DNA from: an uncultured Pelagibacteraceae bacterium | Lineage (GTDB): Bacteria > Pseudomonadota > Alphaproteobacteria > Pelagibacterales > Pelagibacteraceae | DNA: 16,667 nucleotides | Direction of reading: 5' to 3' | Assembly: GCA_902554135.1 (NCBI GenBank) | Contig: CACDNJ010000013.1 | Coordinates: forward strand, 1 to 16,667 | In this document: piece by piece, positions 5,032 through 16,667 of the stretch | Layout of the letters: the number at the start of each line of letters is the position of its first letter | Position numbering within the stretch: position 1 is the stretch's first letter | Position numbers and translations under genes: made by a program | Notes under the pieces: generated by a model | What the model saw: the letters and a program-made list of their open reading frames with translations, nothing else | Told to the model about the DNA's origin: nothing | Database searches by the model: none

Positions 5032-5142
5032 ATTAGTAAAAATATTTTTCTATCAATACTAGAAAATAATTAAAAAACTATGTGCCCATTACGGTTTTAA
5101 GGGCTTCCAAAAGATTAAAATATTTGATTAGATACCGCCCAC

Positions 5143-6342
5143 ATGAAAATTCTTTGCGTATTATATGACGATCCTAAAGGAGGCATGCCGAAAAGTTATC
5201 CGGTATCTTCTCTTCCTAAATTAGAAAAATATCCTGATGGAATGAAATTGCCGACACCAAAAGGTATTGATTTTAAACCAGGTGAATTATTAGGATGTGT
5301 CTCAGGTGAACTAGGTTTAAGAAAATTTTTAGAATCAAAAGGACACAAGCTAGTTGTAACTTCAGACAAAGACGCAAAAGGTTGTAAAGCAGATAAAGAA
5401 TTAGTTGATGCGGATGTTGTAATATCTCAACCGTTCTGGCCTTACTATTTAACAAAAGAGAGAATTAAATCTGCAAAAAATTTAAAAATGGCAATCACAG
5501 CAGGTATCGGATCAGATCACGTTGATCTACAGGCTGCAATGGATAATAAAGTTGATGTAGTAGAAGTTACTTATTGTAATTCTAGATCTGTAGCTGAACA
5601 TATCGTAATGATGATTTTATCTTTAGTTAGAGATTATCATAACCAACACAATATCGTAAACCAAGGCGGATGGAATATCGCTGATGCAGTTCGAAGATCT
5701 TACGATGTTGAAGGAATGCATGTAGGTACCGTAGCAGCAGGACGTATTGGTTTAGATGCTCTAAGAAAAATGAAACCTTTTGATGTTCATCTTCACTATT
5801 TTGATAGACACAAGTTGCCTGACTCAGTTGAAAAAGAATTAAATTTAACATTTCATGACTCAGTCGAGTCTTTAGTTAAGGTTTGTGATGTAGTTACGAT
5901 TAATTGTCCTCTGCATCCAGAAACAGAAAATTTATTTAACGACACACTAATTAGTAAAATGAAAAAAGGTGCTTACATTGTTAACACTGCTAGAGGAAAA
6001 ATTTGTAACAGAGAAGCGATTGTTAAAGCTCTTAAGTCAGGTCAACTAAGTGGTTACGCCGGAGACGTTTGGTTTCCTCAACCAGCACCGAATGATCATA
6101 TTTGGAGATCAATGCCGAACCACGGTATGACTCCACATACTTCTGGAACTTCATTGTCAGCCCAAGCAAGATATGCAGCAGGCGTTAGAGAAATTTTAGA
6201 ATGTTTCTTTGACAAGAAACCTATAAGAGATCCTTACCTAATAGTCAAAGACGGAAAACTTGCCGGCATGGGAGCTCACTCATACAGTAAAGGAAGCGCA
6301 ACTGGCGGTTCCGAAGAAGCTGCAAAATATAAAAAGAAATAA
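5143..6342 (+). CDS. fdh: NAD-dependent formate dehydrogenase (D-2-hydroxyacid dehydrogenase family)
   Basis: A 399-residue single-subunit formate dehydrogenase oxidising formate to CO2 with NAD+. It keeps the same residue numbering as the well-studied Pseudomonas sp. 101 enzyme: PFWP at 97-100, N146, the nucleotide loop VAAGRIGL (197-204), D221-R222 for NAD rather than NADP, R284 in NTARGKICN, Q313 in WFPQPAPNDH and catalytic H332 in MTPHTSGTSLSAQARYAAG. The C-terminal AHSYSKG..TGGSEEAAKYKKK tail is also typical. These marks separate it from phosphoglycerate and lactate dehydrogenases. It stands alone, convergent with tRNA-Thr, and would provide NADH from C1 compounds without metal or molybdenum. 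The ATG at 5143 matches the start of the characterised enzyme. Confidence 0.95.
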   Translation: MKILCVLYDDPKGGMPKSYPVSSLPKLEKYPDGMKLPTPKGIDFKPGELLGCVSGELGLRKFLESKGHKLVVTSDKDAKGCKADKELVDADVVISQPFWPYYLTKERIKSAKNLKMAITAGIGSDHVDLQAAMDNKVDVVEVTYCNSRSVAEHIVMMILSLVRDYHNQHNIVNQGGWNIADAVRRSYDVEGMHVGTVAAGRIGLDALRKMKPFDVHLHYFDRHKLPDSVEKELNLTFHDSVESLVKVCDVVTINCPLHPETENLFNDTLISKMKKGAYIVNTARGKICNREAIVKALKSGQLSGYAGDVWFPQPAPNDHIWRSMPNHGMTPHTSGTSLSAQARYAAGVREILECFFDKKPIRDPYLIVKDGKLAGMGAHSYSKGSATGGSEEAAKYKKK

Positions 6343-6360
6343 TTTAAAGAAAATCTAAAC

Positions 6361-6436
6361 TGGTGCCCCCACACGGACTCGAACCGCGAACCTACTGATT
6401 ACAAATCAGTTGCTCTACCAATTGAGCTATGAGGGC
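6361..6436 (-). tRNA. tRNA-Thr(TGT)
   Basis: Read on the minus strand, acceptor GCCCTCA pairs with TGGGGGC, then A and an encoded CCA (6361-6364 on the + strand). The anticodon stem-loop is CTGAT-TTGTAAT-style with anticodon TGT. D-arm (AGCTCAATTGGTAGAGC) and T-arm (GGTTCGAGTCC) are canonical. Its 5' half (6396-6436) is duplicated perfectly at 15321-15361. Confidence 0.96.
6396..6436 (-). repeat. 41-bp direct repeat, left copy (candidate attL core inside tRNA-Thr)
   Basis: This stretch is identical over 41 bp to 15321-15361, in the same orientation. It covers the tRNA from the mature 5' end through the anticodon loop and almost all of the anticodon stem. The identity stops exactly at the mature 5' end. 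Together with the right copy it brackets the phosphate/arsenate block. Confidence 0.85.
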
Positions 6437-6576
6437 GCAAAAAGTTTTTTAGTTGAAAATATCAAATTAAGCAAGCCTAATAAAGATAATAGATTACTTT
6501 TGAATTTTTAAAATTTTTTTCATTACTTCTTAATTTCAAGTGAAAGTTGCTTAAAGTGACTTATTGTGACCGATCT

Positions 6577-6596
6577 GTAGTCCATTCCGTAGTCCA
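6577..6596 (+). repeat. Paired GTAGTCCA direct repeats (candidate integrase arm sites, left)
   Basis: GTAGTCCA occurs at 6577-6584 and 6589-6596, 12 bp start to start. The same octamer pair occurs near the other end of the block at 15238-15256. Short phased direct repeats inside each junction of a tRNA-bounded element are what tyrosine-integrase arm-type sites look like. The repeats are seen directly; the function is inferred. Confidence 0.5.
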
Positions 6597-6764
6597 GATT
6601 TAATTCTTAAAAATTTGCAATTATTTTGTACCAAGGAAATCTTTCCAGCCTTTCCAGCCTTTATTTTTACAAGGTATCATCAATTAATAGTAAGGATAAA
6701 GTAACTATTGAATAAGAAAATTAACTTTTTTATTTGAGAGATTTAAATGAATTTTTTAATTACT

Positions 6765-6794
6765 ATTACAATTTAAATATTAGTAATTTATACT
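6765..6794 (+). promoter_or_regulatory. Possible phoR promoter
   Basis: ATTACA (6765-6770) and TATACT (6789-6794) are 18 bp apart, ending 19 bp before the phoR ATG. A TAAGG at 6798-6802 could be the ribosome site. I see no 11-bp-phased Pho box here, so phoR may be expressed constitutively. Confidence 0.35.
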
Positions 6795-6813
6795 ACCTAA
6801 GGTTTAATTTAAT

Positions 6814-7857
6814 ATGAGCAATTTATCAGAAACACAGATACAGGAAATAAAATTTCTTGATGAGCTTTTAGATCAAATAATTATTTTAGATAAGTCCAAA
6901 AATATATGCTGTGCTAATAAAAGTGCTCATAAACGATTTGGATCGAAGTTAGAAGGAAAAAATATATCTAGCATTTTAAGAGATGCAAAATTATTAGATA
7001 GTATTGAAACTTCTATCAATCAAAAAAAAACTCAAATAGTCGATGTTGAGGTAAAAAAACCAAATTTTCAATTCTATAAAGCTAGTATTATTCCCGGACC
7101 ATCAAAGCTTTGCAATCAAGAACAATCTGTAATTATTTTTTTAAAGGATTTAACGGAAGTATTCAAAACACAAAAATTTAAATCAGACTTTGTTGCTAAT
7201 GTATCCCATGAACTAAGAACCCCTCTGCAATCTATTAAATTGGGTTTAGAAACTATTAACCAAGGACACGCAACTAATGATTTTGAAAGTCAAAAGAAAT
7301 TTTTACCAATCTTACTTCAACAAACTTCAAGAATGGAAAGCTTAGTTAGTGATTTACTATCTTTGTCTAAAATTGAATTAGAAGAGCATATAAGACCCAC
7401 TGACAAACTTGATCTAAAAGAAATTATTTTACACGTAGTAGAAATACATAAGCAAATAATTAAGAAAAATGACATCTCTGTAGATATAAAAGGAGAAGAA
7501 TCAAAACATATAATACCCGGTCATAGAGAAAGATTAATTGAAGTTTTTACAAATTTAATTGATAATGCAATTAAATATAGCCCAAAAGGTAAAAAAATTT
7601 ATATTTCTTTAACTATTAGCAATGAAAGTACAACAGTATCTATAAGAGATGAGGGCATTGGAATACCCAAAAAATACATACCTAGAATTACAGAAAGATT
7701 TTTTAGAGTAGATCCTGCTAAAAGCAAAGAGGTGGGCGGAACTGGTTTAGGTTTAGCTATTGTAAAACATATAGTAAATCAACATAGAGCAGAAATAGAT
7801 ATTAAAAGTGAAGAGGGAAAAGGAACGGAGTTTATATTAACATTTCCAAATAGCTAA
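6814..7857 (+). CDS. phoR: Phosphate-regulon sensor histidine kinase PhoR, without visible membrane segment
   Basis: A 347-residue histidine kinase. An N-terminal PAS-like region (about 15-115) precedes HisKA with the H box FVANVSHELRTPLQSI (H132 is the phosphoacceptor). The ATP-binding domain has the N box EVFTNLIDNAIKYSPKG (243-259), G1 DEGIGIP (279-285), F box RFFRVD and G2 GGTGLGLAIV (308-317). PhoR identity rests on the H-box type and on its place at the head of the pst-phoU-phoB cluster. It autophosphorylates and passes phosphate to PhoB when phosphate is scarce. Unlike E. coli PhoR it has no hydrophobic N terminus, and an in-frame TAA at 6805 rules out a missed N-terminal extension. 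It is therefore probably cytosolic or tethered through PhoU/PstB. Confidence 0.88.
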   Translation: MSNLSETQIQEIKFLDELLDQIIILDKSKNICCANKSAHKRFGSKLEGKNISSILRDAKLLDSIETSINQKKTQIVDVEVKKPNFQFYKASIIPGPSKLCNQEQSVIIFLKDLTEVFKTQKFKSDFVANVSHELRTPLQSIKLGLETINQGHATNDFESQKKFLPILLQQTSRMESLVSDLLSLSKIELEEHIRPTDKLDLKEIILHVVEIHKQIIKKNDISVDIKGEESKHIIPGHRERLIEVFTNLIDNAIKYSPKGKKIYISLTISNESTTVSIRDEGIGIPKKYIPRITERFFRVDPAKSKEVGGTGLGLAIVKHIVNQHRAEIDIKSEEGKGTEFILTFPNS

Positions 7858-7882
7858 TTTTAATACAACCAAAAAGTTATAT

Positions 7883-7922
7883 CTTTAACAAAACTTTAAC
7901 ATTCTTGTAATAATTCTTAAAC
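7883..7922 (+). promoter_or_regulatory. PhoB-box array upstream of pstS
   Basis: Seven-base units lie exactly 11 bp apart: CTTTAAC (7883), CTTTAAC (7894), TTGTAAT (7905) and CTTAAAC (7916). PhoB binds tandem 7-bp repeats separated by 4 bp (CTGTNAY-type), so spacing and sequence both fit. A TATTTA at 7933-7938 could be the -10, leaving a leader with an AAGGA site before the ATG at 7971. Confidence 0.72.
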
Positions 7923-7970
7923 TTAGATCACATATTTAACAGACAGTTAAACAAAAAAAAGGAAATAAAA

Positions 7971-8997
7971 ATGAAAAAGTTAAATATTTTATTGTCAGTC
8001 TTGGTACTTTTGGTGTTTGCATCATCAGTTCAAGCTAGAGACCAAATAAAAATAGTAGGGTCTTCTACAGTTTATCCATATGCGACAGTTGTAGCTGAAA
8101 CATTTGGAAAAGGTGGAAAATTTAAAACACCTGTTATTGAAAGTACTGGTACGGGTGGTGGAATGAAATTATTCTGTGCAGGAGTAGGTACACAACATCC
8201 AGATATTACTAATGCATCTAGAGCAATTAAATCTAAAGAAAAAGCATTATGTGAAAAAAATGGAGTAACTGAAATTATTGAAATCGTAGTAGGTAATGAT
8301 GGTATAACTTTTGCTCACTCTGTTAATGCACCAGACGCTGATTTTACTAAAGAACAACTTTGGAGAGCGTTAGCTGCTAAAGTTGATATTGATGGCAAGC
8401 TTGTTGCAAATCCATATAAAAAGTGGAGTGATATAGACTCAAGCCTACCAAGTAAAAAAATTGAAATCATGATTGCACCACCAACATCTGGAACAAGAGA
8501 TGCATGGAATTCATTAGTTATGGGTAAAGGATGTTCAAAAGCAGCAAAATCTCTTTACGAAGCTGATGGAAAAAAAGCTAAAAAAAGAATGTGCAAAAAT
8601 GAGAGAAGATGGATACGCGGTTGAAGCAGGGGAAAATGATACTTTAATAGTACAAAAACTAGCTTCTAATCCTGATGCTTTCGGTTTCTTTGGTTACAGC
8701 TATTTAGTTGCAAATAAAGATAAAATTAAAGCTTCTGCAATAAATGGTGTCGAGCCAAGCCTTGAAGGAATTCAAGATTATTCTTATCCAATTGCTAGAC
8801 CATTATTTTTCTATGTAAAAAAAGCTCATATTGGAGTAGTGCCTGGTATAAAAGAATTTATCAAAGCATTTACTTCTAAAAAAGCGATGGGATCAAATGG
8901 TTATCTGACTGATATTGGTCTCGTTCCATTAGCAAAAGATAAATATAAATTAGTTAGAACTGCAGCTACTGAGTTGCAAACTATTAAGATTAATTAA
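7971..8997 (+). CDS. pstS: Periplasmic phosphate-binding protein PstS, reading frame interrupted near 8583
   Basis: PstS delivers phosphate to the PstCAB transporter. A signal peptide (MKK, hydrophobic core, cleavage after VQA about residue 22) precedes the mature protein. Phosphate-binding segments are visible: GSSTVYP (30-36), STGTGGG (58-64), DITNASR (78-84) and PTSGTRDAW (171-179). Codons from 7971 run to a stop at 8624, but from about 8587 the family sequence continues in the +1 frame (ECAKMREDGYAVEAGEND... FGFFGYSYL) to a stop at 8997. The switch falls in a run of seven A at 8580-8586; six A would restore one frame of about 341 residues, a normal PstS length. This may be a sequencing error, a mutation, or a site corrected by slippage. 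A strong terminator follows, and a Pho-box array precedes it. Confidence 0.9.
8580..8586 (+). other. A7 homopolymer at the pstS frame break
   Basis: Seven A follow the GCT codon. Upstream codons read D-G-K-K-A-K-K then shift; downstream family sequence resumes as E-C-A-K-M only if one A is skipped. A second near-identical A-run (8570-8576) lies just upstream, so the site is doubly prone to indels or slippage. Confidence 0.8.
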
Positions 8998-9017
8998 TTT
9001 TAATAAACCCTCTTAAT

Positions 9018-9050
9018 AAAAGGCCAGGATAAATTCCTGGCCTTTTTTCT
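9018..9050 (+). terminator. Rho-independent terminator after pstS
   Basis: AGGCCAGGA (9021-9029) and TCCTGGCCT (9035-9043) form a perfect 9-bp stem, extendable by three A-T pairs, with a 5-nt TAAAT loop and a trailing T tract. It lies between pstS and a second Pho-box array, so pstS and pstCAB are separate transcripts or linked by partial read-through. Confidence 0.93.
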
Positions 9051-9078
9051 TTATTTTTATTCAATCATGGGTTTAGGT

Positions 9079-9107
9079 TTGTAATAAAACTGTAACACTA
9101 TTGTAAT
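9079..9107 (+). promoter_or_regulatory. PhoB-box array upstream of pstC
   Basis: TTGTAAT (9079), CTGTAAC (9090) and TTGTAAT (9101) are spaced exactly 11 bp apart; the middle unit matches the CTGTNAY Pho-box consensus. The array ends only 14 bp before the pstC ATG at 9122, so the -10 (perhaps TAATAAT, 9104-9110) overlaps the last unit and the mRNA leader would be very short. Confidence 0.78.
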
Positions 9108-9121
9108 AATGTTTGGTCAAA

Positions 9122-10525
9122 ATGAATTTGGCCATAATTGTATTAATAGTTCTTTTTAGCGTTTCTTCTTTTTTCTTTGCCAGAACAAAAGTAAAAAAAA
9201 TTGCAATTTCAAATCAAACAAAACTAAACGCATTACCAGATTATTATGGGTACTATCTTTCTTTGTGGTGTGCACTACCAGCTCTGCTGATACTTATTGT
9301 TTGGACAATTTTTGAACCATCAATTATTAAAGCATTTATTTTTCAAGGAATAAGCGGAGAAAATGCTCAAACATATAATAATTCTGAATTAAATTTAATA
9401 TACCAACAAATTAAGTCTTTTCATTTTGGTTATTTCACTGGAACTATAACTGAAGAAATAATAAGGGGGGCAGAAAGCTATAAATCTTTCTTATCTATAG
9501 CTCAAGGGTCGAAGATAGTTTTACTAGCAACAATAATAATATTTACAACTCTTTATGCTCTTAAAAAAATATTAAATAATAATAAAGCCCGAGAGGATGT
9601 AGAAAAAATTTTTAAGGGACTCCTTTTTGTATGTTCTCTAGTAGCAATTTTGACTACGATTGGTATTATATTTGCTCTATTATTTGAAAGTATTAAATTT
9701 TTTTCAGTAATTAATATCTTTGATTTTTTATTTGGCACTTCGTGGAGTCCACAACGAGCATTTGTTAGAGATGCTTCTACCATTACAGCAGAAGAATATG
9801 CAGATTTAAAAAATGCATTTGGTACGGTGCCATTATTTGCTGGTACAGCTTTTATTGCGTTGATTGCGATGATAGTTGCAGTTCCTATTGGTTTATTTTC
9901 TGGAATTTACATGGCTGAATATGCAAATACAAAAGTTAGAAAATATTCAAAACCAATCATTGAAATTCTTGCTGGTATTCCTACTGTTGTTTATGGTTTT
10001 TTTGCAGCTTTAACCGTTGGACCTTTTTTTAGAGAAATAGGGGAAAAATTTGGTTTAGAAGTATCTTCCGAAAGTGCCTTAGCGGCGGGTCTAGTAATGG
10101 GAGTTATGATCATACCTTATATTAGTTCATTGTCAGATGATGTAATTAATGCTGTACCTCAGTCATTACGAGATGGTTCCTATGCGGTTGGAGCTACTAA
10201 ATCAGAAACTATTAAAAAAGTTGTTTTTCCCGCTGCGCTTCCAGGAATTGTTGGATCTGTGCTTCTTGCTGTTTCAAGGGCGATAGGAGAAACAATGATT
10301 GTTGTTATGGCTGCTGGCTTAGCAGCTAATTTAACTTTAAATCCATTAGAATCGACAACAACAATCACAACACAAATTGTAATGATTTTAGTAGGAGATC
10401 AGGAATTCGATAGTCCTAAAACTCAATCTGCTTTTGCATTAGGTCTTACATTATTCTTTGCTACTTTAGTTTTAAACTACATAGCTCTAAGGGTTGTTAA
10501 AAAATATAGAGAAAAATATGAATAA
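9122..10525 (+). CDS. pstC: Phosphate ABC transporter permease PstC, long form
   Basis: An inner-membrane permease of the high-affinity phosphate importer. I start at ATG 9122 (467 residues); the frame is open to a TTG at 9113, which lies too close to the Pho box. The first transmembrane helix begins right after the start (NLAIIVLIVLFSVSSFFFA), another lies at about 41-61, and the permease core is in the C-terminal half: GIYMAEYAN, GIPTVVYGFFAAL, and the cytoplasmic EAA loop RDGSYAVGATKSETIKKVVFP at about 350-370, followed by AVSRAIGETMIVVMAAG. E. coli PstC is about 319 residues; the extra N-terminal part is usual for alphaproteobacterial PstC. The stop overlaps pstA by 8 bp. No Shine-Dalgarno is visible. 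Confidence 0.93.
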   Translation: MNLAIIVLIVLFSVSSFFFARTKVKKIAISNQTKLNALPDYYGYYLSLWCALPALLILIVWTIFEPSIIKAFIFQGISGENAQTYNNSELNLIYQQIKSFHFGYFTGTITEEIIRGAESYKSFLSIAQGSKIVLLATIIIFTTLYALKKILNNNKAREDVEKIFKGLLFVCSLVAILTTIGIIFALLFESIKFFSVINIFDFLFGTSWSPQRAFVRDASTITAEEYADLKNAFGTVPLFAGTAFIALIAMIVAVPIGLFSGIYMAEYANTKVRKYSKPIIEILAGIPTVVYGFFAALTVGPFFREIGEKFGLEVSSESALAAGLVMGVMIIPYISSLSDDVINAVPQSLRDGSYAVGATKSETIKKVVFPAALPGIVGSVLLAVSRAIGETMIVVMAAGLAANLTLNPLESTTTITTQIVMILVGDQEFDSPKTQSAFALGLTLFFATLVLNYIALRVVKKYREKYE

Positions 10526-11780
10526 AGATCAGTTACTTAAAAAAAGATACCGAGCTGAAAAAAGATTTAAATTTTATGGGTTAATATCAATTACATTAGC
10601 AATTTTATTTGTAATTTTTTTAGTAAATGTAATTTTTTCTAAAGGAAGAACAGCTTTTCAGAGAACGACCATTGCTGTTGAAGTAAATTTCAATGCAGAA
10701 GAACTGGAGTTAAATTCAAACGCTTCTATAGAAGAAATCCAGGATGCTGATTTTTATGATTTATCGATTAATAGTTTACTTAAGCTTTATAAAACTGAAG
10801 GAGCGAAACAAGAAAAAGAATTATTAAGAGTTTTTAGCCCCGATCATGATATCGAGATTAAAAATTTTTTAATTAAAAATTTAGATAATTTAAACAAAAA
10901 TGTCATAGTTAATTTAACTACCTCAGATGATATTGATCAGCTCCATAAAGGAAATTATCCAAGACATTTGCCAGAAGAAAGAAGAAGAATATCAGATTTT
11001 CAACTTTTAATTTATGATCAATTAGTAAAGGAAAATAAAGTTAATAAAGTATTTAATACTTTCTTTTTTACTAATGGAGACTCAAGAAATCCTGAAGTAG
11101 CTGGTATAGGTGGTTCTTTATTTGGATCATTTTTTACTATAATTATTACATTAATACTTTCTTTTCCAATTGCTATTTTTGCATCAATATATTTAGAAGA
11201 GTTTGCTCCAAAAAATCGTATTACAGATTTTATTGAAATAAATATTAATAATTTGGCAGCTGTACCATCAATTGTTTTTGGTTTATTGGGTTTAGGAATT
11301 CTTTTAGGAACATTTGATTTGCCCAGATCAACCCCATTAGTTGCGGGAATTACATTATCTTTAATGACTTTACCAAGAATTATTATTCCATGTAGAGCTT
11401 CATTAAAAGCTGTCCCACCATCTATTAGAGAGGGTGCGCTTGCAGTTGGAGCATCGAAAGTTCAATCAGTTATGCACCATGTTGTTCCTTTAAGTATTCC
11501 TGGAACATTATCCGGAACTATTATTGGTCTTGCTCAGGCTTTAGGAGAAACTGCTCCTTTAATACTTATTGGTATGGTTGCGTTTGTTGTAGATATACCA
11601 GCAACGCCTATTGATCCATCTGCATCATTACCTGTTCAAGTCTATCTTTGGTCAGAACAAGCTGAACGAGGATTTGTTGAAAAAACTTCAGCTACTATTA
11701 TGGTTTTGCTGAGCTTTTTAATTGTAATGAATTTCATAGCAGTTTATTTAAGGCAAAAATTTGAGAAAAAATGGTCATGA
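10518..11780 (+). CDS. pstA: Phosphate ABC transporter permease PstA, long form with N-terminal DUF3333-like region
   Basis: The second transmembrane subunit of the Pst importer. ATG at 10518 (420 residues) lies 8 bp before the pstC stop; a TTG at 10494 is open but less likely. A first helix (about residues 15-40) is followed by a charged extracytoplasmic stretch of roughly 150 residues as in the DUF3333 N-terminal region of alphaproteobacterial PstA. The permease core then runs through [36 protein letters not shown] and the EAA loop [21 protein letters not shown] starting near 304, then [16 protein letters not shown]. It pairs with PstC and the ATPase PstB, whose gene overlaps its end. Confidence 0.93.
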
Positions 11781-12544
11781 TAAATAATAAAGTTAAAATA
11801 AAAACTACAAACCTTAATGTTTATTATGGAGATAAACAGGCACTTAATGATGTGAATTTAGAAATTCACAGTAAAGAAGTTACAGCACTAATCGGGCCAT
11901 CTGGATGTGGAAAATCTACATATATAAGATGTATTAATCGTATGAATGATGTAATCGATATTTGTAGAGTTGCTGGTTCCATCGAAATTGATGGCAATGA
12001 AATAAATAAAAAAGAAATTGATGTTGTAAGCTTAAGAGAGAAAATAGGAATGGTTTTTCAAAAACCTAATCCATTTCCAAAAAGTATCTATGACAATGTT
12101 TCTTACGGACCAAATATTCATGGTTTAGCAGAAAACAAAGTTAAGATGGACGAAATTGTTGAAACTAGTTTAAAAAAAGCAGCACTATGGAATGAGGTTA
12201 AAGATCGATTAAACGAGCCGGGTACAAGTTTATCTGGTGGCCAACAACAAAGATTATGTATAGCAAGAGCAATATCGGTAAATCCTGAAGTTATTTTAAT
12301 GGACGAACCCTGTTCAGCGCTTGATCCTATCGCTACTGCTAAAATAGAAGAATTAATGGACGAATTAAAAAAGAGTTATACAATAGTAATAGTTACGCAT
12401 TCTATGTCCCAAGCCGTTAGGGTTTCGCAAAGAACAGGATTTTTCCATCTCGGGAAGCTCATAGAAGTTGATACAACAGAAAAAATATTTAAAAATCCTA
12501 ACAATAAAATGACACAAGATTATATTACAGGGAGGTTCGGATAA
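11771..12544 (+). CDS. pstB: Phosphate ABC transporter ATP-binding protein PstB
   Basis: The cytoplasmic ATPase powering phosphate import, 257 residues. It has Walker [10 protein letters not shown] (42-50), the Q-loop [16 protein letters not shown] (95-110) with the FPKSIYDNV stretch diagnostic of PstB, the signature [14 protein letters not shown] (154-167), Walker B VILMDEP (174-180) and the H-loop VTHSM. The ATG at 11771 overlaps pstA by 10 bp and has GAG about 5 bp upstream. The ATG at 11777, forming an ATGA overlap with the pstA stop, is an equally reasonable start. phoU follows after 2 bp. PstB also contacts PhoU when signalling phosphate sufficiency. Confidence 0.96.
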
Positions 12545-12546
12545 TT

Positions 12547-13245
12547 ATGTCAGATGAAGCACATATAGTTAAGTCTTATGAAGAAGAGCTACAAAACTTA
12601 AACGATAGTTTGATTAAGATGGGCAGTCTAACTGAAAGTCAATTAGCTGATTCAATGGAAGCTATAATAAAAGTAGATAAAGAATCAGCAGATAAAATTA
12701 TTGCAAATGATGCGAAGATTAATGAATTAAGAGCAAAAATTGATAATCAAATAATGACTGTTTTAGTCAAAAGAGCTCCTATGGCAATTGATTTAAGAAT
12801 AACAATATCAACCTTAAAAATTTCGCACGATTTAGAAAGAATAGGAGATTTAGCCAAAAGTGTTGCAAAAAAAATTAAACCTTTACCCCATGATTTACCC
12901 AAAGAACTTATTGGCAGCCTAAGAAGATTAGGAGATTTAGTTCAAAAACAATTAAGAAATGTATTAGACGCTTATCTTAACAAATCAAAAGAAAGTGCCA
13001 TAACCATTTGGAAAAATGATGAACAAGTAGATGATCTTACTAATACTGCAATGAACGAGGTAGCTGATTTTTTAGGAAAAAGTAAAAAAAATTTAGAATT
13101 AGCTACTCATTTATTATTTGTTACTAAAAATATTGAAAGAGCAGGGGATCACATTACTAATATCGCTGAGTCCTTATACTATTTAATTGAAGGTGAGTAT
13201 TTAGAAGGAGCTAGACCTAAGGGTAAAGATATAGAGAAAAATTAA
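12547..13245 (+). CDS. phoU: Phosphate signalling accessory protein PhoU
   Basis: A 232-residue, almost wholly helical protein with the two internal PhoU repeats (three-helix bundles). Each repeat carries its signature: ISHDLERIGDLAKSVAK-type sequence at about 93-108 and KNIERAGDHITNIAESLYYLIEG at about 195-217; the acidic E/D positions bind metal in known structures. PhoU links the Pst transporter to PhoR and keeps the Pho response off when phosphate is plentiful. It starts 2 bp after pstB, and its stop overlaps the phoB start by one base (TAATG), so the genes are co-translated from the pst mRNA. This gives feedback because PhoB controls that mRNA. Confidence 0.95.
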   Translation: MSDEAHIVKSYEEELQNLNDSLIKMGSLTESQLADSMEAIIKVDKESADKIIANDAKINELRAKIDNQIMTVLVKRAPMAIDLRITISTLKISHDLERIGDLAKSVAKKIKPLPHDLPKELIGSLRRLGDLVQKQLRNVLDAYLNKSKESAITIWKNDEQVDDLTNTAMNEVADFLGKSKKNLELATHLLFVTKNIERAGDHITNIAESLYYLIEGEYLEGARPKGKDIEKN

Positions 13246-13925
13246 TGAATGCTAAAATATTTATAGTAGAAGATGAAAAGCCTATTATAACTTTAATTAA
13301 ATATAATTTAGAAAAAGAAGGTTACAAAGTTTCTTCTTCAGAAAACGGTGAAGAGGCACTTAAAGAGATAAAGGAAAGCGCTCCAGATCTTGTCTTATTA
13401 GATTGGATGTTACCTGATTTGTCAGGAATAGAGATTTGTAAACAACTTAAAAAAAGCGCTAAATATAAAAGTATACCAATCATTATGCTGACGGCTAAAG
13501 GAGAAGAAGAGGATAAAGTTAGAGGATTAAATGTTGGCGCAGATGATTATGTAACTAAACCATTTAGCTATCCTGAATTGCTCGCAAGAATAGAAGCTTT
13601 GCTTAGAAGATCTAAACCTTCAGTGGCACAAGATGTTATTTCTTTTGAAGATTTAAAAATTGATAGAATTACAAGGAGAGTTTACAGAGGAAAAAAAGAG
13701 ATTTCTTTAGGTCCTACAGAATATAATTTGTTAGACTTTTTTATAAAAAATCCAAAGAGAGTTTATTCTAGAGAGCAATTACTCGAAAATGTTTGGGGAA
13801 ACGATATTAACGTAGAATCCAGAACCGTTGATGTTCATATACGTAGGTTAAGACAAGCAATTAATATAGCAGGCAGTAAAGAACTGATAAGAACAGTAAG
13901 ATCTGCTGGTTATTCCTTAGACTAA
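13245..13925 (+). CDS. phoB: Phosphate-regulon response regulator PhoB
   Basis: A 226-residue OmpR-family regulator. The receiver domain has the acidic pair E9/D10, phosphoacceptor D53 (LLDWMLPD), T83 and K105 (VTKPFSY). The winged-helix DNA-binding domain follows (about 130-225): LGPTEYNLLDFF, YSREQLLENVWG and the recognition region ESRTVDVHIRRLRQAI. PhoB identity comes from the LLDWMLPD..G pattern and the operon. Phosphorylated by PhoR, it would bind the two 11-bp-phased arrays upstream of pstS and pstC. Sensor and regulator genes sit at opposite ends of the transporter cluster, so phoB, but not clearly phoR, is under Pho control. Confidence 0.95.
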   Translation: MNAKIFIVEDEKPIITLIKYNLEKEGYKVSSSENGEEALKEIKESAPDLVLLDWMLPDLSGIEICKQLKKSAKYKSIPIIMLTAKGEEEDKVRGLNVGADDYVTKPFSYPELLARIEALLRRSKPSVAQDVISFEDLKIDRITRRVYRGKKEISLGPTEYNLLDFFIKNPKRVYSREQLLENVWGNDINVESRTVDVHIRRLRQAINIAGSKELIRTVRSAGYSLD

Positions 13926-13930
13926 AATTT

Positions 13931-14350
13931 ATGAAATCAATATTATTTATTTGCACTGGTAATTCTGCAAGAAGTATTATTGCGGAAAGCATTATAAACA
14001 AAAACTATAGTAAAGATTTTAATGCATATAGTGCAGGTAGCAATCCAAGTGGAAAAATTAATCCTCATATTAAAGAATATTTAATTACTAAAAAATATGA
14101 TGTTTCAAACCTTAATTCGAAAAATTTTAATGTTTTTTTAAAAGATAAAAAAATATTTGATTACGTTGTAACAGTTTGCAGTAGTGCACATAATGAAATT
14201 TGCCCAATTTGGCCTAACAAAAACATAATTATTCATTGGGATATTAAAGATCCTGTAAAACAAATTGAAAGCCTTAATTTGAAAAAAAAATCAATAGACG
14301 TAATTATTGATGAAACGTATAAAGTTTTATATAGAAAAATTACTGATTGA
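13931..14350 (+). CDS. arsC: Arsenate reductase, thioredoxin-coupled type (low-molecular-weight phosphatase fold)
   Basis: A 139-residue member of the LMW-protein-tyrosine-phosphatase family. The P-loop ICTGNSARS (7-15) supplies the CX5R motif with C8 as nucleophile. Two further cysteines, C83 and C91 in VVTVCSSAHNEICPIWP, match the redox relay cysteines of thioredoxin-linked ArsC; ordinary LMW phosphatases lack them. HWDIKDP (102-108) corresponds to the HWGxxDP segment of ArsC enzymes. The enzyme reduces arsenate to arsenite in the cytoplasm. It starts 5 bp after phoB, so it should be induced with the Pho regulon, when high-affinity phosphate uptake is active. No arsR repressor is present nearby. 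Confidence 0.88.
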   Translation: MKSILFICTGNSARSIIAESIINKNYSKDFNAYSAGSNPSGKINPHIKEYLITKKYDVSNLNSKNFNVFLKDKKIFDYVVTVCSSAHNEICPIWPNKNIIIHWDIKDPVKQIESLNLKKKSIDVIIDETYKVLYRKITD

Positions 14351-14357
14351 ACACAAA

Positions 14358-15011
14358 GTGAAAAAAACAAATAAATATTTTTTAGGCGAATTTATTGGTA
14401 GTGCTTTTCTAGTTATGATTGTTGTGGGATCTGGCATTATGGCTGAAAATTTGACTGATAATTTAGCAATAATGCTTTTAGCTAATGCAATAGCTACTGG
14501 CGCAGGTTTGTTTGTTTTAATTACTGTTTTTTCAGATATTTCAGGAGCTCACTTTAATCCATTCGTATCACTAGCAATGGTTTTAACTAAAAAATTAAAT
14601 AAAAATTTATTAATAACCTACATTCCAGCTCAAGTTTTAGGATGTTTATTTGGGGTCATGCTTGCAAATTTTTTCTTTGAATATCCATTAATTGAACTTT
14701 CAACGAAAGTTAGACCAGGTATTAATATCTTTGTTGCAGAAATTGTAGCAACTTTTGGACTTATATTTGTAATCTTTGGATCATTAAGAAGCGGAAAAAT
14801 AGTTGTAGCCGCATCCGTAGCGACATTTATTACTGCAGGTTATTGGTTTACATCCTCAACATCTTTTGCAAATCCTGCCGTTGCACTAGCTAGAACATTT
14901 ACGAATACTTTTACCGGTATTAATTATACTAATACACCAAGCTATATTTTAGCCGAATTAATCGGCGCTTTAATAGCGGTATACGTGATTAAAAAACTAA
15001 TTTTAAAGTAA
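14358..15011 (+). CDS. MIP-family channel, AqpS-like (probable arsenite exit channel)
   Basis: A 217-residue aquaglyceroporin-family protein with about six membrane helices. Half-helix motifs are HFNPF (N67-P68-F69, the first NPA changed to NPF) and FANPAVALAR (N172-P173-A174), followed by TFTNTFTGI, the NPAVxxAR..xxTFxGI pattern of AqpS-type channels. In Sinorhizobium meliloti, AqpS next to ArsC is known to let arsenite leave the cell down its gradient; the same gene pair here suggests the same role. The start is uncertain: GTG 14358 lies 7 bp after arsC, while ATG 14310 would overlap arsC by 41 bp and add 16 residues. Water or glycerol transport is a less likely alternative. Confidence 0.83.
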   Translation: MKKTNKYFLGEFIGSAFLVMIVVGSGIMAENLTDNLAIMLLANAIATGAGLFVLITVFSDISGAHFNPFVSLAMVLTKKLNKNLLITYIPAQVLGCLFGVMLANFFFEYPLIELSTKVRPGINIFVAEIVATFGLIFVIFGSLRSGKIVVAASVATFITAGYWFTSSTSFANPAVALARTFTNTFTGINYTNTPSYILAELIGALIAVYVIKKLILK

Positions 15012-15054
15012 TCAGTGATTTATATAACTCTTTTCTTATCTTTATAATTCAATA

Positions 15055-15225
15055 ATGAATTTTGATCAAATAATCCCAATAATCTTTTTGATTGGAGTAT
15101 TGATATTAGTGTTGCCTAGTTTTTTACAATCCAATTCCAAACTAAAACAAATTCTTGCTAATCTTTCAATCTGGGTAATTATTGTTTTGATAGTGACTAC
15201 AATTTCGTATTTTTTATTAAAATAA
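15055..15225 (+). CDS. Small two-helix membrane protein of unknown function
   Basis: A 56-residue open frame starting at ATG 15055. It has two clear hydrophobic segments (about 6-23, IIPIIFLIGVLILVLPSF, and about 38-55, SIWVIIVLIVTTISYFLL) joined by a short polar, lysine-containing turn (QSNSKLKQ). The regular design, hydrophobic/polar alternation and position 43 bp after the channel gene, in the same direction, support a real small gene. I do not recognise the family; no catalytic motif is visible. It is the last gene inside the candidate island. Confidence 0.6.
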   Translation: MNFDQIIPIIFLIGVLILVLPSFLQSNSKLKQILANLSIWVIIVLIVTTISYFLLK

Positions 15226-15237
15226 AAACTACCATGC

Positions 15238-15256
15238 GTAGTCCATCTGTAGTCCA
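15238..15256 (+). repeat. Paired GTAGTCCA direct repeats (candidate integrase arm sites, right)
   Basis: GTAGTCCA at 15238-15245 and 15249-15256, 11 bp start to start, with a partial third CCATGC unit just before. The octamer pair is shared with 6577-6596 at the left end and lies 65 bp inside the tRNA fragment. A T8 tract follows, so it might also mark a transcript end, though no good stem forms. Confidence 0.5.
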
Positions 15257-15320
15257 TGCTTTTTTTTGAATCTTTTAGCCAGGTTTTATGCTAGTATTTT
15301 AATTAATTGTTGAGTGAAAA

Positions 15321-15361
15321 TGATTACAAATCAGTTGCTCTACCAATTGAGCTATGAGGGC
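15321..15361 (-). repeat. Truncated tRNA-Thr copy: 41-bp direct repeat, right copy (candidate attR core)
   Basis: Identical over 41 bp to 6396-6436. It contains the 5' acceptor strand, D-arm and anticodon stem-loop of tRNA-Thr(TGT), but the variable loop, T-arm and 3' acceptor are missing; the flanking base towards 15320 differs from tRNA-Thr. It cannot make a tRNA. Perfect identity in a non-functional copy suggests recent origin or upkeep as a recombination site. Confidence 0.85.
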
Positions 15362-15395
15362 CTGCTCGGAGTATTAAATAAAAGTTGTATAGATA

Positions 15396-16181
15396 TCAAG
15401 ATTTTTCTTTAAATATATTCAAATAATGAAAAACAACAGATGCGCTATTAGCGATATTTAGACTCTCTACCTTTTTATTTATATTAATCCGAAATAAAAA
15501 ATCTGAATTCTTTTTTATTTGATAATTTAATCCATGTCCTTCAGAACCAAAAAGAAGAACATTATTTCCTTTCCAGTCATGTTTGGTGAAGTCTTTTTTA
15601 CTTTCACTGTCAAAACCACTTACCCAGAAATTTTTAGATTTAAGGTATTTTAGGGTTGTATTAACATTTGACACTTGAAATATATTAATAAGCTCAGTAC
15701 ATCCGCTTGCACTTTTGTATAGAAGTTTACTTTCGCTAGGATAAGATCTTTCTTTAACGATAATACCGTCGATATTAAATGAAGCGGCACTTCTTATAAT
15801 TGAACCGATATTTCTAGGATCTGTTACCTCATCTAATGCTACAAGATTTATGTCATTTCTATCCGAATTTTTATTTAGAAAATCTTTTATACTGAGCTCT
15901 TCTAGATGCTCTATTTCTGCGACCAAACCTTGATGTGTAATACCATCCTTTGAACAATATTTATCTAGTTCTTTTTTGGTTTTATAAAAAAGACTAACAT
16001 TTTTAAGTAGACTGAGATGCTGGTTTTCTCTATTTATTCTTTTTTTTGAATCTTCGGTTAAAAATACTCTTAAGACCCTTCTAAGAGGATTTTTTAATGC
16101 TTCTGTTACAGCATGTCTCCCAACTATGTAAAAAGTACTTTTTTTCACTGAATTTTTAAGTTTTGTATAAATAAATAGCAT
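15396..16181 (-). CDS. rlmB: 23S rRNA (guanosine-2'-O)-methyltransferase RlmB-like, SpoU family
   Basis: A 261-residue SpoU/TrmH-family knot methyltransferase. An N-terminal substrate-binding domain begins with FYIVGRHAVTEAL (17-29), typical of RlmB/TrmH group 3. The catalytic domain has motif 1 DPRNIGSIIRSAASF (121-135; N124 and R130), motif 2 LFGSEGHGL (210-218) and motif 3 VESLNIANSASVVF (238-251). The enzyme uses S-adenosylmethionine to methylate a ribose 2'-OH, in E. coli at G2251 of 23S rRNA. I take ATG 16181; a TTG at 16193 is open but weaker. It is transcribed away from tRNA-Tyr and towards the tRNA-Thr fragment, suggesting an ancestral rlmB-tRNA-Thr arrangement before the insertion. 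Confidence 0.88.
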   Translation of the reverse strand: MLFIYTKLKNSVKKSTFYIVGRHAVTEALKNPLRRVLRVFLTEDSKKRINRENQHLSLLKNVSLFYKTKKELDKYCSKDGITHQGLVAEIEHLEELSIKDFLNKNSDRNDINLVALDEVTDPRNIGSIIRSAASFNIDGIIVKERSYPSESKLLYKSASGCTELINIFQVSNVNTTLKYLKSKNFWVSGFDSESKKDFTKHDWKGNNVLLFGSEGHGLNYQIKKNSDFLFRININKKVESLNIANSASVVFHYLNIFKEKS

Positions 16182-16283
16182 ATTTAAAAGCAAAATGATT
16201 TATTGCATTTATCAATCAAGATGCTTATAAAACCCTTGTTGTTGAATGCTTTTTAAGTTATTGGGTATCCCCTAACGACGTTT

Positions 16284-16369
16284 GGAGGGGTACCAAAGCG
16301 GTCAAATGGGGCGGGCTGTAAACCCGTTGACTTCGGTCTTCGAAAGTTCGAATCTTTCCCCCTCCACCA
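16284..16369 (+). tRNA. tRNA-Tyr(GTA)
   Basis: Class II tRNA with encoded CCA. GGAGGGG (16284-16290) pairs with CCCCTCC (16359-16365). The anticodon stem GCGGG/CCCGT encloses CTGTAAA, anticodon GTA. The long variable arm and GTTCGAATC T-loop fit tyrosine tRNA. It is followed closely by tRNA-Gly, as in many bacteria where tyr-gly tRNA genes precede tuf. Confidence 0.96.
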
Positions 16370-16418
16370 AACTTAAAAATCTTTAATAATAAAGAGGGCG
16401 TGATAAGTTTTGGATATT

Positions 16419-16489
16419 GCGGGTGTCGTATAATGGTAATACCTCAGATTTCCAATCTGATGCTAGGAGTTCGATTCTCCTCATCCGCT
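16419..16489 (+). tRNA. tRNA-Gly(TCC), 3' CCA replaced at a sequence junction
   Basis: GCGGGTG (16419-16425) pairs with CATCCGC (16482-16488); the discriminator T is 16489. Anticodon loop TTTCCAA gives TCC. The three other tRNAs in the window encode CCA, but here the following bases read CCG because the sequence switches into inverted tuf at 16487-16491. The tRNA body itself is intact. Confidence 0.93.
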
Positions 16490-16667
16490 CCGTCCATTTG
16501 TGCTGCACCAGTAATCATGTTTTTTACATAGTCAGCGTGACCAGGACAGTCTACGTGAGCGTAGTGTCTTTTTTCAGTTTCGTATTCAACGTGCGCTGTT
16601 GAAATTGTAATTCCACGTTCTTTCTCTTCAGGTGCTTTGTCAATTTGATCATAAGCAATAAATTCTG
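16487..16667 (-). pseudogene. tuf: Partial, inverted elongation factor Tu gene fragment
   Basis: Read on the minus strand from the right edge, codons give [17 protein letters not shown], then [20 protein letters not shown] and MDGA, which is EF-Tu from about residue 44 to 102 (E. coli numbering), including the switch I threonine and the DCPGH G3 motif. The 5' part lies beyond the window. After DGA the EF-Tu sequence stops abruptly and the frame runs into antisense tRNA-Gly, ending at a TGA at 16444. Usually tuf follows tRNA-Gly in the same direction; here it is inverted and lacks its last three quarters. It is therefore either a rearranged fragment or an amplification/assembly chimera. Confidence 0.85.

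Follow-up and report, generated by a model that had tools for sequence, protein, structure and literature searches.

CIMEs (cis-mobilizable elements), for example in Streptococcus, and the integrase-less ssrA islands of Dehalococcoides are described, in the available text of the two reports, as att-bounded elements that carry cargo genes, have no recombination genes and accrete in tandem (PMC7563491, PMC3146451). Tycheposons of Prochlorococcus, reported also in Methylophilaceae, are outlined second-hand in an excerpt as elements of 4 to 200 kb with a tRNA border and nutrient cargo, and the same excerpt names a tyrosine recombinase as characteristic of them (PMC10872708). Excerpts of two further reports describe the flexible phosphate islands (fGIp) of HIMB59, with no tRNA or IS at their boundaries and with homologous recombination inferred (PMC10734472), and pst genes in a flexible island of SAR11 (PMC7318151).

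We analyzed a stretch of 16,667 nucleotides from an uncultured Pelagibacteraceae bacterium (the window). An 8.9-kb block in the window is very probably an integrated, att-bounded genomic island in a tRNA-Thr gene, without an integrase (Table 1). Phage satellites (PICI, PLE and the like) have their own integrase, regulators or packaging genes; the island holds only pst/pho genes, an arsC-like gene, a MIP family gene and one small ORF. Like the CIMEs and ssrA islands of those excerpts, it is att-bounded, carries cargo genes and has no recombination genes of its own, and its site can hold tandem elements; its att sites appear to be retained without recombination or transfer genes. Unlike them, its ends resemble a phage attP and use the 5' half of a tRNA, its cargo is for phosphate uptake and its host is a streamlined marine alphaproteobacterium. 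CIMEs arise by deletion from an ICE or IME; no conjugative relative turned up among the sequences examined. Mobilization by accretion as in CIMEs is possible, given that a related genome (G013) has two elements in tandem at the tRNA-Thr site. On the second-hand definition, the island resembles tycheposons in its tRNA boundary, its 8.9-kb length, its pst nutrient cargo and its streamlined host, and differs in the absence of the tyrosine recombinase named in that excerpt. As far as the two phosphate excerpts go, it shares with the HIMB59 and SAR11 islands an exchangeable pst-phoU segment with phoR-phoB in several versions (PMC10734472, PMC7318151), and differs from the fGIp in having att boundaries inside a tRNA gene.

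TABLE 1 Positions of the island, its flanks and its genes in the window
Feature	Position	Strand	Basis
Formate dehydrogenase gene, left chromosomal flank, outside island	5143..6342	+	NCBIfam NAD-dependent formate dehydrogenase; 96% to G312
Intact tRNA-Thr(TGT)	6361..6436	-	Placed by ARAGORN; upstream comparison
Putative att core copy 1, tRNA nt 1-41	6396..6436	-	Perfect direct repeat
Putative left att end, comprising the conserved end and the new upstream region of the tRNA	6437..6600		End comparison
Paired arm-type repeats GTAGTCCA-N4-GTAGTCCA, left end	6577..6596	+	Copies at 6577/6589
Cargo segment like g1 pst locus	6751..15007	+	97.9-98.2% nt identity
phoR, sensor histidine kinase	6814..7857	+	Pfam HisKA/HATPase_c
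pstS, frameshift-split	7971..8997 (7971-8624 and 8566-8997)	+	ORF list and family match
pstC	9113..10525	+	Family match
pstA	10494..11780	+	99% identical to five g1 genomes
pstB	11771..12544	+	Family match
phoU	12547..13245	+	Identity of 99-100% with g1 copies and of 80-81% with closest g2 copies
phoB	13245..13925	+	Family match
arsC-like LMW phosphatase-fold gene	13931..14350	+	Pfam LMWPc
MIP family channel, aquaglyceroporin-like	14307..15011	+	Profile match
56-aa ORF, right-end module	15055..15225	+	96% identical to G013 element C ORF
Paired arm-type repeats GTAGTCCA-N3-GTAGTCCA, right end	15238..15256	+	Copies at 15238/15249
Conserved right-end box TTTTATGCTAGTATTT	15284..15299		End comparison
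Putative att core copy 2, the host's own tRNA-Thr 5' half, displaced	15321..15361	-	Repeat and empty-site alignment
Original tRNA-Thr upstream (promoter) region	15362..15395	-	Aligns to the empty site in G312, G264 and G024
rlmB, right chromosomal flank, outside island	15396..16193	-	Family match; 86% to G312

Table 1 shows that nt 1 to 41 of tRNA-Thr(TGT) are present in two perfect copies, 8,925 bp apart. The second copy has the same orientation as the tRNA, as an earlier note on this DNA had claimed, and two copies of the 41-nt repeat arose in 0 of 200 dinucleotide shuffles. With the gene on the minus strand, the second copy stops just past the anticodon (position 34), and its 5' end points to the rlmB side. 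A direct repeat of part of a tRNA at both ends, together with an intact tRNA, is the pattern of a tRNA-targeted island. The displaced fragment retains the host's old tRNA upstream region, which relatives of the host show at their empty sites. The upstream region of the intact tRNA-Thr is new and common to the islands of other genomes. The first ~48 nt of this new region are 87% like the empty site in the g1 genome G004, and therefore only the part beyond is island-specific. The upstream exchange supports the earlier proposal that the element supplies the tRNA 5' half, and the intact tRNA-Thr would be a hybrid gene with a chromosomal 3' part and a 5' part from the island.

We then compared the site with that of relatives. 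G312 and G264 were the nearest genomes read, and in both the flanks meet across exactly one 41-nt core, as expected of the empty site of a tRNA-targeted integrative island, a class that would also have its own integrase gene, which was not found here. Window positions 5044-6436 and 15321-16491 aligned to 8627-10018 and 9978-11143 of contig L722 (G312), and the same flanks aligned to 2-1683 and 1643-2810 of contig L723 (G264), each time with a 41-nt overlap. The order fdh-tRNA-Thr-rlmB, which the earlier note had taken as ancestral, is thus contiguous in both genomes. Among the 19 g2 genomes with a tRNA-Thr match, rlmB directly adjoins the tRNA in 10, and of these, 5 have fdh immediately across the tRNA from it and 3 more have fdh ~0.9 kb off; in the other 9 the site is not plainly empty or not visible. 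Other cargo at this tRNA-Thr site, which the earlier note had suggested looking for, includes restriction-modification genes and an oligopeptide transporter. The same architecture is present independently in G001, G013 and G217, and in G217, a member of another genus, the fragment matches nt 1 to 41 of its own tRNA-Thr at 41 of 41 positions. Occupied sites without a tRNA fragment were seen in G018 and G247, and the fragment is eroded in G020. The pst-carrying version of the island is known only from this window. Separately, family f2 has arrays of tRNA-Thr 3' halves, which we considered as a related case and judged to be a separate phenomenon.

The genes between the two copies are those named earlier, phoR-pstS-pstC-pstA-pstB-phoU-phoB followed by the arsC-like gene, the MIP gene and the small ORF. 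The pstS gene consists of two overlapping ORFs with a frameshift near 8.58 kb, and relatives have intact copies; the arsC-like gene scores under the NCBIfam arsenate reductase cut-offs. The cargo match extends over 6751-13957 in four g1 genomes and over 6965-15007 in G001. Rather than all relatives having the pst block here with no tRNA fragment, a case that the earlier note had named as refuting its model, five g1 genomes carry a near-identical block at another chromosomal locus. The flank proteins, on the other hand, match the genus-g2 genome G312 (RlmB, 86%; NADK, 77%; FDH, 96%), and these flanking genes place the host nearest to G312. G001 was dropped as the nearest kin of the host, its likeness coming from the island. 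The xenology of g1-type cargo between g2-type flanks indicates that the island is horizontally acquired, and with cargo 98% identical to another genus, its arrival would be recent.

It was conceivable that homologous recombination or rearrangement put the pst block beside tRNA-Thr and that the partial tRNA copy arose by a duplication unrelated to it. Such recombination has been proposed for the HIMB59 phosphate islands in the available excerpt (PMC10734472), and at the other g1 locus the pst block of G016 is 99-100% identical to those of G002 and G004 while the downstream flank is at 70-78%, a contrast expected of homologous exchange. However, an exact empty site, an exchanged tRNA upstream region and att ends common to unrelated cargo are unexpected under this explanation, and with the empty-site alignment already largely refuting it, we regard it as highly improbable. 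An assembly chimera, in which the identical tRNA-Thr sequence led g2 flanks to be attached to g1 contigs with the pst element, would likewise give g1-like cargo and ends between g2-like flanks, with joins where g1 and g2 sequences are identical. But the right join has only the 41-nt core to offer and the same architecture was found independently in G001, G013 and G217, which makes a chimera very unlikely; if the contig were chimeric, the pst block would still lie between att ends, but in a g1 host.

The island ends are conserved among genomes. Over its first 160 nt, the left end shares 94% identity with both G001 and G013 element C and 85% with G020, and the right end is 77% identical to G001 and matches G013 at 74 of the 77 nt compared. 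The 8-mer GTAGTCCA has four copies in the whole window, all just inside the island ends, and the layout of paired repeats at both ends resembles that of a phage attP. Among 397 genomes of the order, the exact arm-pair pattern was found only in G001, and the reversed control had 0 matches. The right-end pattern had three matches in these genomes, of which those in G028 and G217 are real; that in G276 was rejected, with no tRNA half beside it. In the G020 mini-element, the repeats have changed together at both ends, to GTAGTACT. A Pfam search with the 56-aa ORF gave no match.

As the earlier note had stated, no integrase is visible in the island, neither among ORFs of at least 60 aa nor among the forward-strand genes, which match other families or none. 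Therefore, movement would need an integrase supplied in trans. The locus may instead be a dead remnant, a former autonomous element or prophage that lost its integrase after pst capture and is now a fixed chromosomal locus. The missing integrase, the frameshifted pstS and the G020 element, with its eroded fragment yet persisting arm repeats, would all suit this explanation, which we hold possible but somewhat doubtful. Against it, the 41-nt core is still perfect, both arm pairs are intact and the arrival appears recent. Moreover, an integrase is also missing from the island of G001, from both elements of G013 and from the island of G020 (no PF00589 match on their contigs, none among their ORFs), which favours an integrase-less class over repeated loss.

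To find the acting integrase, we searched viral and genome sequences. Viral contigs carry the tRNA-Thr 5' half as attP next to a tyrosine integrase, with a core that is identical in L506/L507 and ~95% identical in L305, L329 and L418; L536/L537 are further contigs with such an attP and integrase. In phage contigs of the L506/L507 and L305 types (IMG/VR), the core has the same orientation as in the island and arm repeats lie at a similar distance from it; unlike the island, these contigs have phage genes and, next to the core, a tyrosine integrase of 378 to 386 aa. An exact arm-pair scan gave at least 115 stretches in genome contigs and 82 in viral contigs, with a G+C content of 40% or less in 11 of the 115 listed genome-contig stretches and 38 of the 82 viral ones. 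Tests of the 197 listed stretches for tRNA-like words within 400 bp of the pair left six, five of which were by eye chance or unrelated neighbours. In L159, from a gammaproteobacterial MAG, a tRNA 5' half adjoins the arm pair, with no integrase in the 8 kb of sequence examined. No phage or element combining an integrase with GTAGTCCA arms was among the matches listed for genome and viral contigs.

Other searches gave similar results. The core with GTAGT matched 21 of the 397 genomes, with paired arms in G001 only; in viral contigs it matched at least 120 stretches, with no usable attP among the matches listed. The 54 stretches with a tRNA-half word and TAGCATA were rejected, as inspection showed complete tRNAs or sequence of no relation. 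In a phage database, the 40 records listed of 187 matched the island junction query in the tRNA core only, and tblastn with the integrase gave no match. A phage integrase profile, run without a positive control, had 0 matches in the 397 genomes, and no excised circle of the island was found. An arm-binding integrase is expected to have extra N-terminal length, and a 304-aa Xer-like recombinase of family f1, which has none, was set aside, though not rejected, as the acting enzyme.

We propose that a tyrosine recombinase joined a circular form of the island to tRNA-Thr(TGT) in the region of its anticodon arm. A tRNA 5' half with its upstream region would have arrived as part of the island, and the original 5' half and upstream region would have been displaced by 8.9 kb, to their place beside rlmB. 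The ends of the island would correspond to a phage attP, with a core from a tRNA 5' half and, on either side of it, paired sites to which the arm-binding integrase would attach, and a g1-type pst-pho-arsC-mip segment, of presumed benefit to phosphate uptake, would now be in a cell with g2-type flanking genes. The integrase would most likely come in trans from a temperate phage using the tRNA-Thr half as attP, or from a neighbouring element. Tentatively, and with this reading as a whole somewhat less than probable, SAR11 populations may have in common minimal cassettes of 0.8 to ~10 kb that lack an integrase and are moved into tRNA 5' halves by the integrases of co-infecting temperate phages. 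The arm-site families GTAGTCCA, GTAGTACT, GTAGTGCA and TGTCGGT would then mark the matching phage integrase; restriction systems and the uptake of phosphate and peptides would pass in this way from one species or genus to another; and homologous recombination would afterward copy cassette alleles into native loci.

Phosphate is growth-limiting in parts of the ocean. While tRNA islands, CIMEs, tycheposons and the exchange of pst islands in SAR11-like bacteria were already known, in the present case the integration boundaries of a pst block are exact, an empty site is available for comparison, and one genus of donor type and one of recipient type can be pointed to, which makes a mechanism of nutrient-gene transfer directly testable. 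The paired repeats are a sequence handle with which further cassettes and their integrase may be located. The island suggests a route by which genes for scarce nutrients could pass between ocean bacteria.

We found a tRNA-Thr(TGT) gene on the minus strand and, 8,925 bp away in identical orientation, a perfect second copy of its nucleotides 1 to 41 (the core), as the earlier note had claimed of a tRNA-Thr and a 41-bp copy of its 5' half enclosing the pst block. The pair of copies was reproduced in none of 200 dinucleotide shuffles. Between them lie phoR, pstS, pstC, pstA, pstB, phoU, phoB, an arsC-like LMW phosphatase gene, a MIP channel gene and a 56-aa ORF. Arsenate reductase is a weak name for the arsC-like gene, since its protein scored far under the NCBIfam arsenate reductase cut-offs. 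pstS is broken near 8.58 kb, where an A-rich run holds a frameshift. This is the sole within-gene gap of the block in the alignment to G016 (genus g1); it may reflect an error in sequencing, or else real loss at the onset of decay.

Positions of the island features, alignments and related elements
Feature	Window	Other sequence
tRNA-Thr(TGT), minus strand	6361-6436	
Fragment (second copy of tRNA-Thr nt 1-41)	15321-15361	
Sequence upstream of fragment	15362-15395	
Left arm pair, GTAGTCCA-N4-GTAGTCCA	6577	
Right arm pair, GTAGTCCA-N3-GTAGTCCA	15238	
pstS (broken)	7971-8997	
Left cargo breakpoint	between 6597 and 6751	
Right cargo breakpoint	between 15007 and ~15055	
Cargo aligned to four g1 genomes	6751-13957	
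Cargo aligned to G001 (contig starts there)	6965-15007	
Left flank aligned to G312	5044-6436	L722 8627-10018
Right flank aligned to G312	15321-16491	L722 9978-11143
Overlap of the flanks in G312		L722 9978-10018
Overlap of the flanks in G264		1643-1683
tRNA-Leu(TAA) insert of G312		L722 3592-6392
GTAGTCCA pair, gammaproteobacterial MAG		L159 557-720
GTAGTCCA-type pairs, SAR324 contig		L114 605 and 7760
tRNA-Thr 3'-half fragments, family f2		L050 5798-7249

G001 (g1) was the nearest genome to the window by sampled words (28% common). It was rejected as the nearest kin of the host, as this likeness stems from the island and the flanking genes are nearest G312 (genus g2). The window RlmB was 86, 83, 81, 78 and 72% identical to that of the g2 genomes G312, G264, G024, G247 and G295, respectively, and 68 to 70% identical to that of the four fully matching g1 genomes. 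For NADK, identity was 77% in G312, 58 to 66% in the rest of g2 with a full match and 57 to 61% in g1; since the ranges overlap, NADK is poor at telling the genera apart beyond G312 and G264 (84%, a partial match). Judged on the flanking genes, the host is placed nearest G312.

The gene order of G312 was that of the window (VOC, FAD monooxygenase, BKACE, tRNA-Leu, glycosyltransferase, NADK, formate dehydrogenase [FDH], tRNA-Thr, RlmB, tRNA-Tyr and tRNA-Gly), differing by an insert adjoining tRNA-Leu. The two window flanks overlapped in G312 by 41 nt, a single core, and likewise overlapped in G264, so that the contiguous fdh-tRNA-Thr-rlmB order predicted for relatives was seen in both alignments. 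When 31 g2 genomes were surveyed for tRNA-Thr (E <= 1e-8), 19 matched, once apiece, and no second tRNA-Thr fragment was found in any of the 19 at this threshold. rlmB adjoined tRNA-Thr in 10 of the 19 (short loci), and in 9 the arrangement was other or lay outside the visible sequence of the short loci; FDH was directly opposite the rlmB side of tRNA-Thr in five of the 10 and about 0.9 kb off in three more of them. Among the family f1 loci examined, 12 had both tRNA-Thr and RlmB; the two were adjacent in nine (G024, G032, G021, G004, G026, G023, G002, G030 and G025) and separated by an insert in three (G001, G020 and G018).

Upstream of the displaced fragment, the sequence matched the tRNA-Thr upstream region at the empty sites of G312, G264 and G024, and the upstream region of the intact tRNA-Thr matched island ends in G001, G013 and G020. 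This exchange indicates that the island delivered the tRNA-Thr 5' half together with its upstream region, in agreement with the proposal that the element supplies the 5' half. The first ~48 nt upstream of the intact gene were 87% like the empty site of G004 (g1), which fits a g1 origin of the island; the island-specific part is therefore the farther-in part alone.

The window PstA was 99% identical to that of G001, G002, G004, G016 and G022, all of g1, whose pst stretches are without tRNA-Thr. The nucleotide identity of the cargo was 97.9% in four g1 genomes, 98.2% in G001, whose pst stretch also includes arsC-like and MIP genes, and 75.8% in G024 (g2). PhoU was 99 to 100% identical in four of the seven g1 genomes searched, with no match in G012, G013 and G020; in the seven g2 genomes searched, it was 80 to 81% identical in three and 45% in three, with no match in G312. 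Among G001, G002 and G004, RlmB differed by 21 to 26% and PstA was identical after rounding. When G016 was compared with G002 and G004 (pst loci L511 to L514, including G022), the block was 99 to 100% identical and the downstream flank 70 to 78%; the kilobase upstream was still 96 to 98% identical, so the g1 block boundary is sharp on one side alone. G016 and G022 were alike over both flanks. The pst block has thus also passed recently between species of g1, apparently through homologous exchange without a change of locus.

Just inside each island end is a direct-repeat pair (arm pair). Two matches to the pattern arose in 0/200 shuffles, and the GTAGTCCA 8-mer has no further copies in the window. 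Of 397 genomes of the order, G001 alone had the exact pair (reversed control, 0/397); G013, which also has it, lay outside this sample. The G001 island has pairs at both ends, with a single change in one right-hand copy. In the 0.8-kb element of G020 (one 153-aa ORF), the left pair consists of two GTAGTACT copies and the right pair of ATAGTACT/GTAGTACT; in G217, of another genus, TGTCGGT is paired on the left and, by eye, a weaker pair of TATCGGT/AATAGGT stands on the right; and G006 has GTAGTGCA pairs at the left, the only end visible. Such joint change at both ends would be expected of the arm sites of one recombinase, and we infer that the pairs are recombinase-bound. A right-end box, TATGCTAG or TATGATAA, was common to the window, G001, G013, G217, G028 and G012.

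Similar pairs were observed elsewhere. In a gammaproteobacterial MAG (L159), a GTAGTCCA pair lies ~100 bp from a tRNA 5' half in the layout of the island right end; ARAGORN calls no tRNA there, and no integrase was found among the ORFs of the 8-kb stretch. Two GTAGTCCA-type pairs 7.2 kb apart in like orientation on a SAR324 contig (L114) may belong to an element that has this arm motif in a different lineage.

Other cargo was found at the tRNA-Thr site, as the earlier note had envisaged. G001 carries an Eco47II-like restriction enzyme and a C5 methylase (~2.3 kb). G013 has two tandem elements, the outer sides of both cut by contig ends: the larger (~7.2 kb between arm pairs) encodes an SNF2 helicase, an N6/N4 methylase and a NO VEIN-domain protein, and the smaller (~1.1 kb) a terminal 56-aa ORF 96% identical to the window's. 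In G217, 9.7 kb encode an oligopeptide ABC transporter, DUF1028 and an M20 peptidase, with a fragment identical to nt 1-41 of its own tRNA. G028 has two fragments on separate contigs; in G012, the fragment adjoins rlmB and the tRNA ends a different contig. By eye, genes resembling surface-glycan genes follow the G020 element, and similar genes form the inserts of G018 and G247, which are without a fragment.

PF00589 (integrase) matches were present in 50 of 60 relatives, a search that left out G217 and G247, and none lay on the contigs that carry the inserts of G001, G013, G020, G018, G012, G028 and G006. No tRNA-Thr was found at the 14 integrase regions examined; the tRNAs there were Lys, Cys, Arg, Ser (two, one 4 kb from its integrase) and Glu (two). 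Five f1 genomes examined (L410 to L414) have in common a 304- to 317-aa Xer-like recombinase, and the one scored (L410) was far under the XerC/XerD cut-offs; 18 of 24 f2 genomes had two PF00589 matches. XerCD may have been replaced in f1.

A 25-nt core scan of viral contigs returned at least 120 stretches. Among those listed, three have the 5' half alone next to a tyrosine integrase: L392 (386 aa, full gene in L506), L305 (378 aa) and L329. The core is exact in L392/L506 and about 95% identical in L305 and L329. An integrase profile search gave 43 viral loci; GCTCTACC lay 247 to 284 bp before the integrase match in 14 of the 35 checked for an upstream tRNA word, several of those without it having little upstream sequence. 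Set against SAR11 tRNAs, 12 phage attachment (attP) regions gave tRNA-Thr matches from nt 1 to 41-44 in five (L520, L523, L305, L536 and L537), tRNA-Asn nt 1-45 in four (L525, L526, L528 and L533), a 16-nt tRNA piece in L530 and no match in L532 and L539. The L506 and L305 integrases matched phrog_1, and that of L506 also PF00589; the L506 arms are ATAGTGCA pairs, near those of G006. Phage contigs and island share the layout of right end, core and left arms, followed by an integrase in the phage but phoR in the island. The tRNA sequence suggests SAR11 as the host of these phages.

tRNA-Leu(TAA) 5' halves likewise bound inserts in G312 and G024. In G312, a 5'-half fragment and the full tRNA-Leu surround 2.7 kb with phosphofructokinase and pyruvate kinase, a possible glycolysis cassette without counterpart at the window tRNA-Leu; the intact tRNA has a tandem ACTAGAGCA pair close by, for which the fragment side gave no match. 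The 2.2-kb insert of G024 holds DUF4910 and formyl transferase genes, and the same test found no arm-type pair. In L050 and other genomes of family f2, tRNA-Thr is followed at its 3' side by as many as four 3'-half fragments of that gene (nt 25-76), ~400 to 515 bp apart, a pattern of integration from the opposite side.

The pst islands of HIMB59 do not follow species lines, and the authors of that study note neither IS nor tRNA at the boundaries and propose homologous recombination (PMC10734472), whereas the island here is bounded in tRNA-Thr. pst-phoU and phoB-phoR occupy the same position of a flexible island in two SAR11 genomospecies (PMC7318151), a Pelagibacterales phn operon has tyrosine recombinases and tRNA genes nearby (PMC12416821), and Methylophilaceae harbour both a tycheposon and an island whose tRNA-Lys end repeats recur (PMC10872708). 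The closest general precedents are cis-mobilizable elements (CIMEs) and integrase-less ssrA islands (PMC7563491, PMC3146451). Among the listings and opening lines of abstracts searched for SAR11 or Pelagibacter islands or prophages at tRNA genes, in a mostly non-subscription literature, we recognised no earlier report of such an island.

The core duplication, the empty site, the upstream-region exchange, the shared ends and the xenology of the cargo are established by sequence comparison. We interpret the block as an att-bounded, integrase-less island in the tRNA-Thr 5' half, carrying a phosphate-uptake segment from another genus. A recombinase supplied in trans would move the island, which may be mobile at present, and its perfect core and intact repeats are consistent with a recent arrival.
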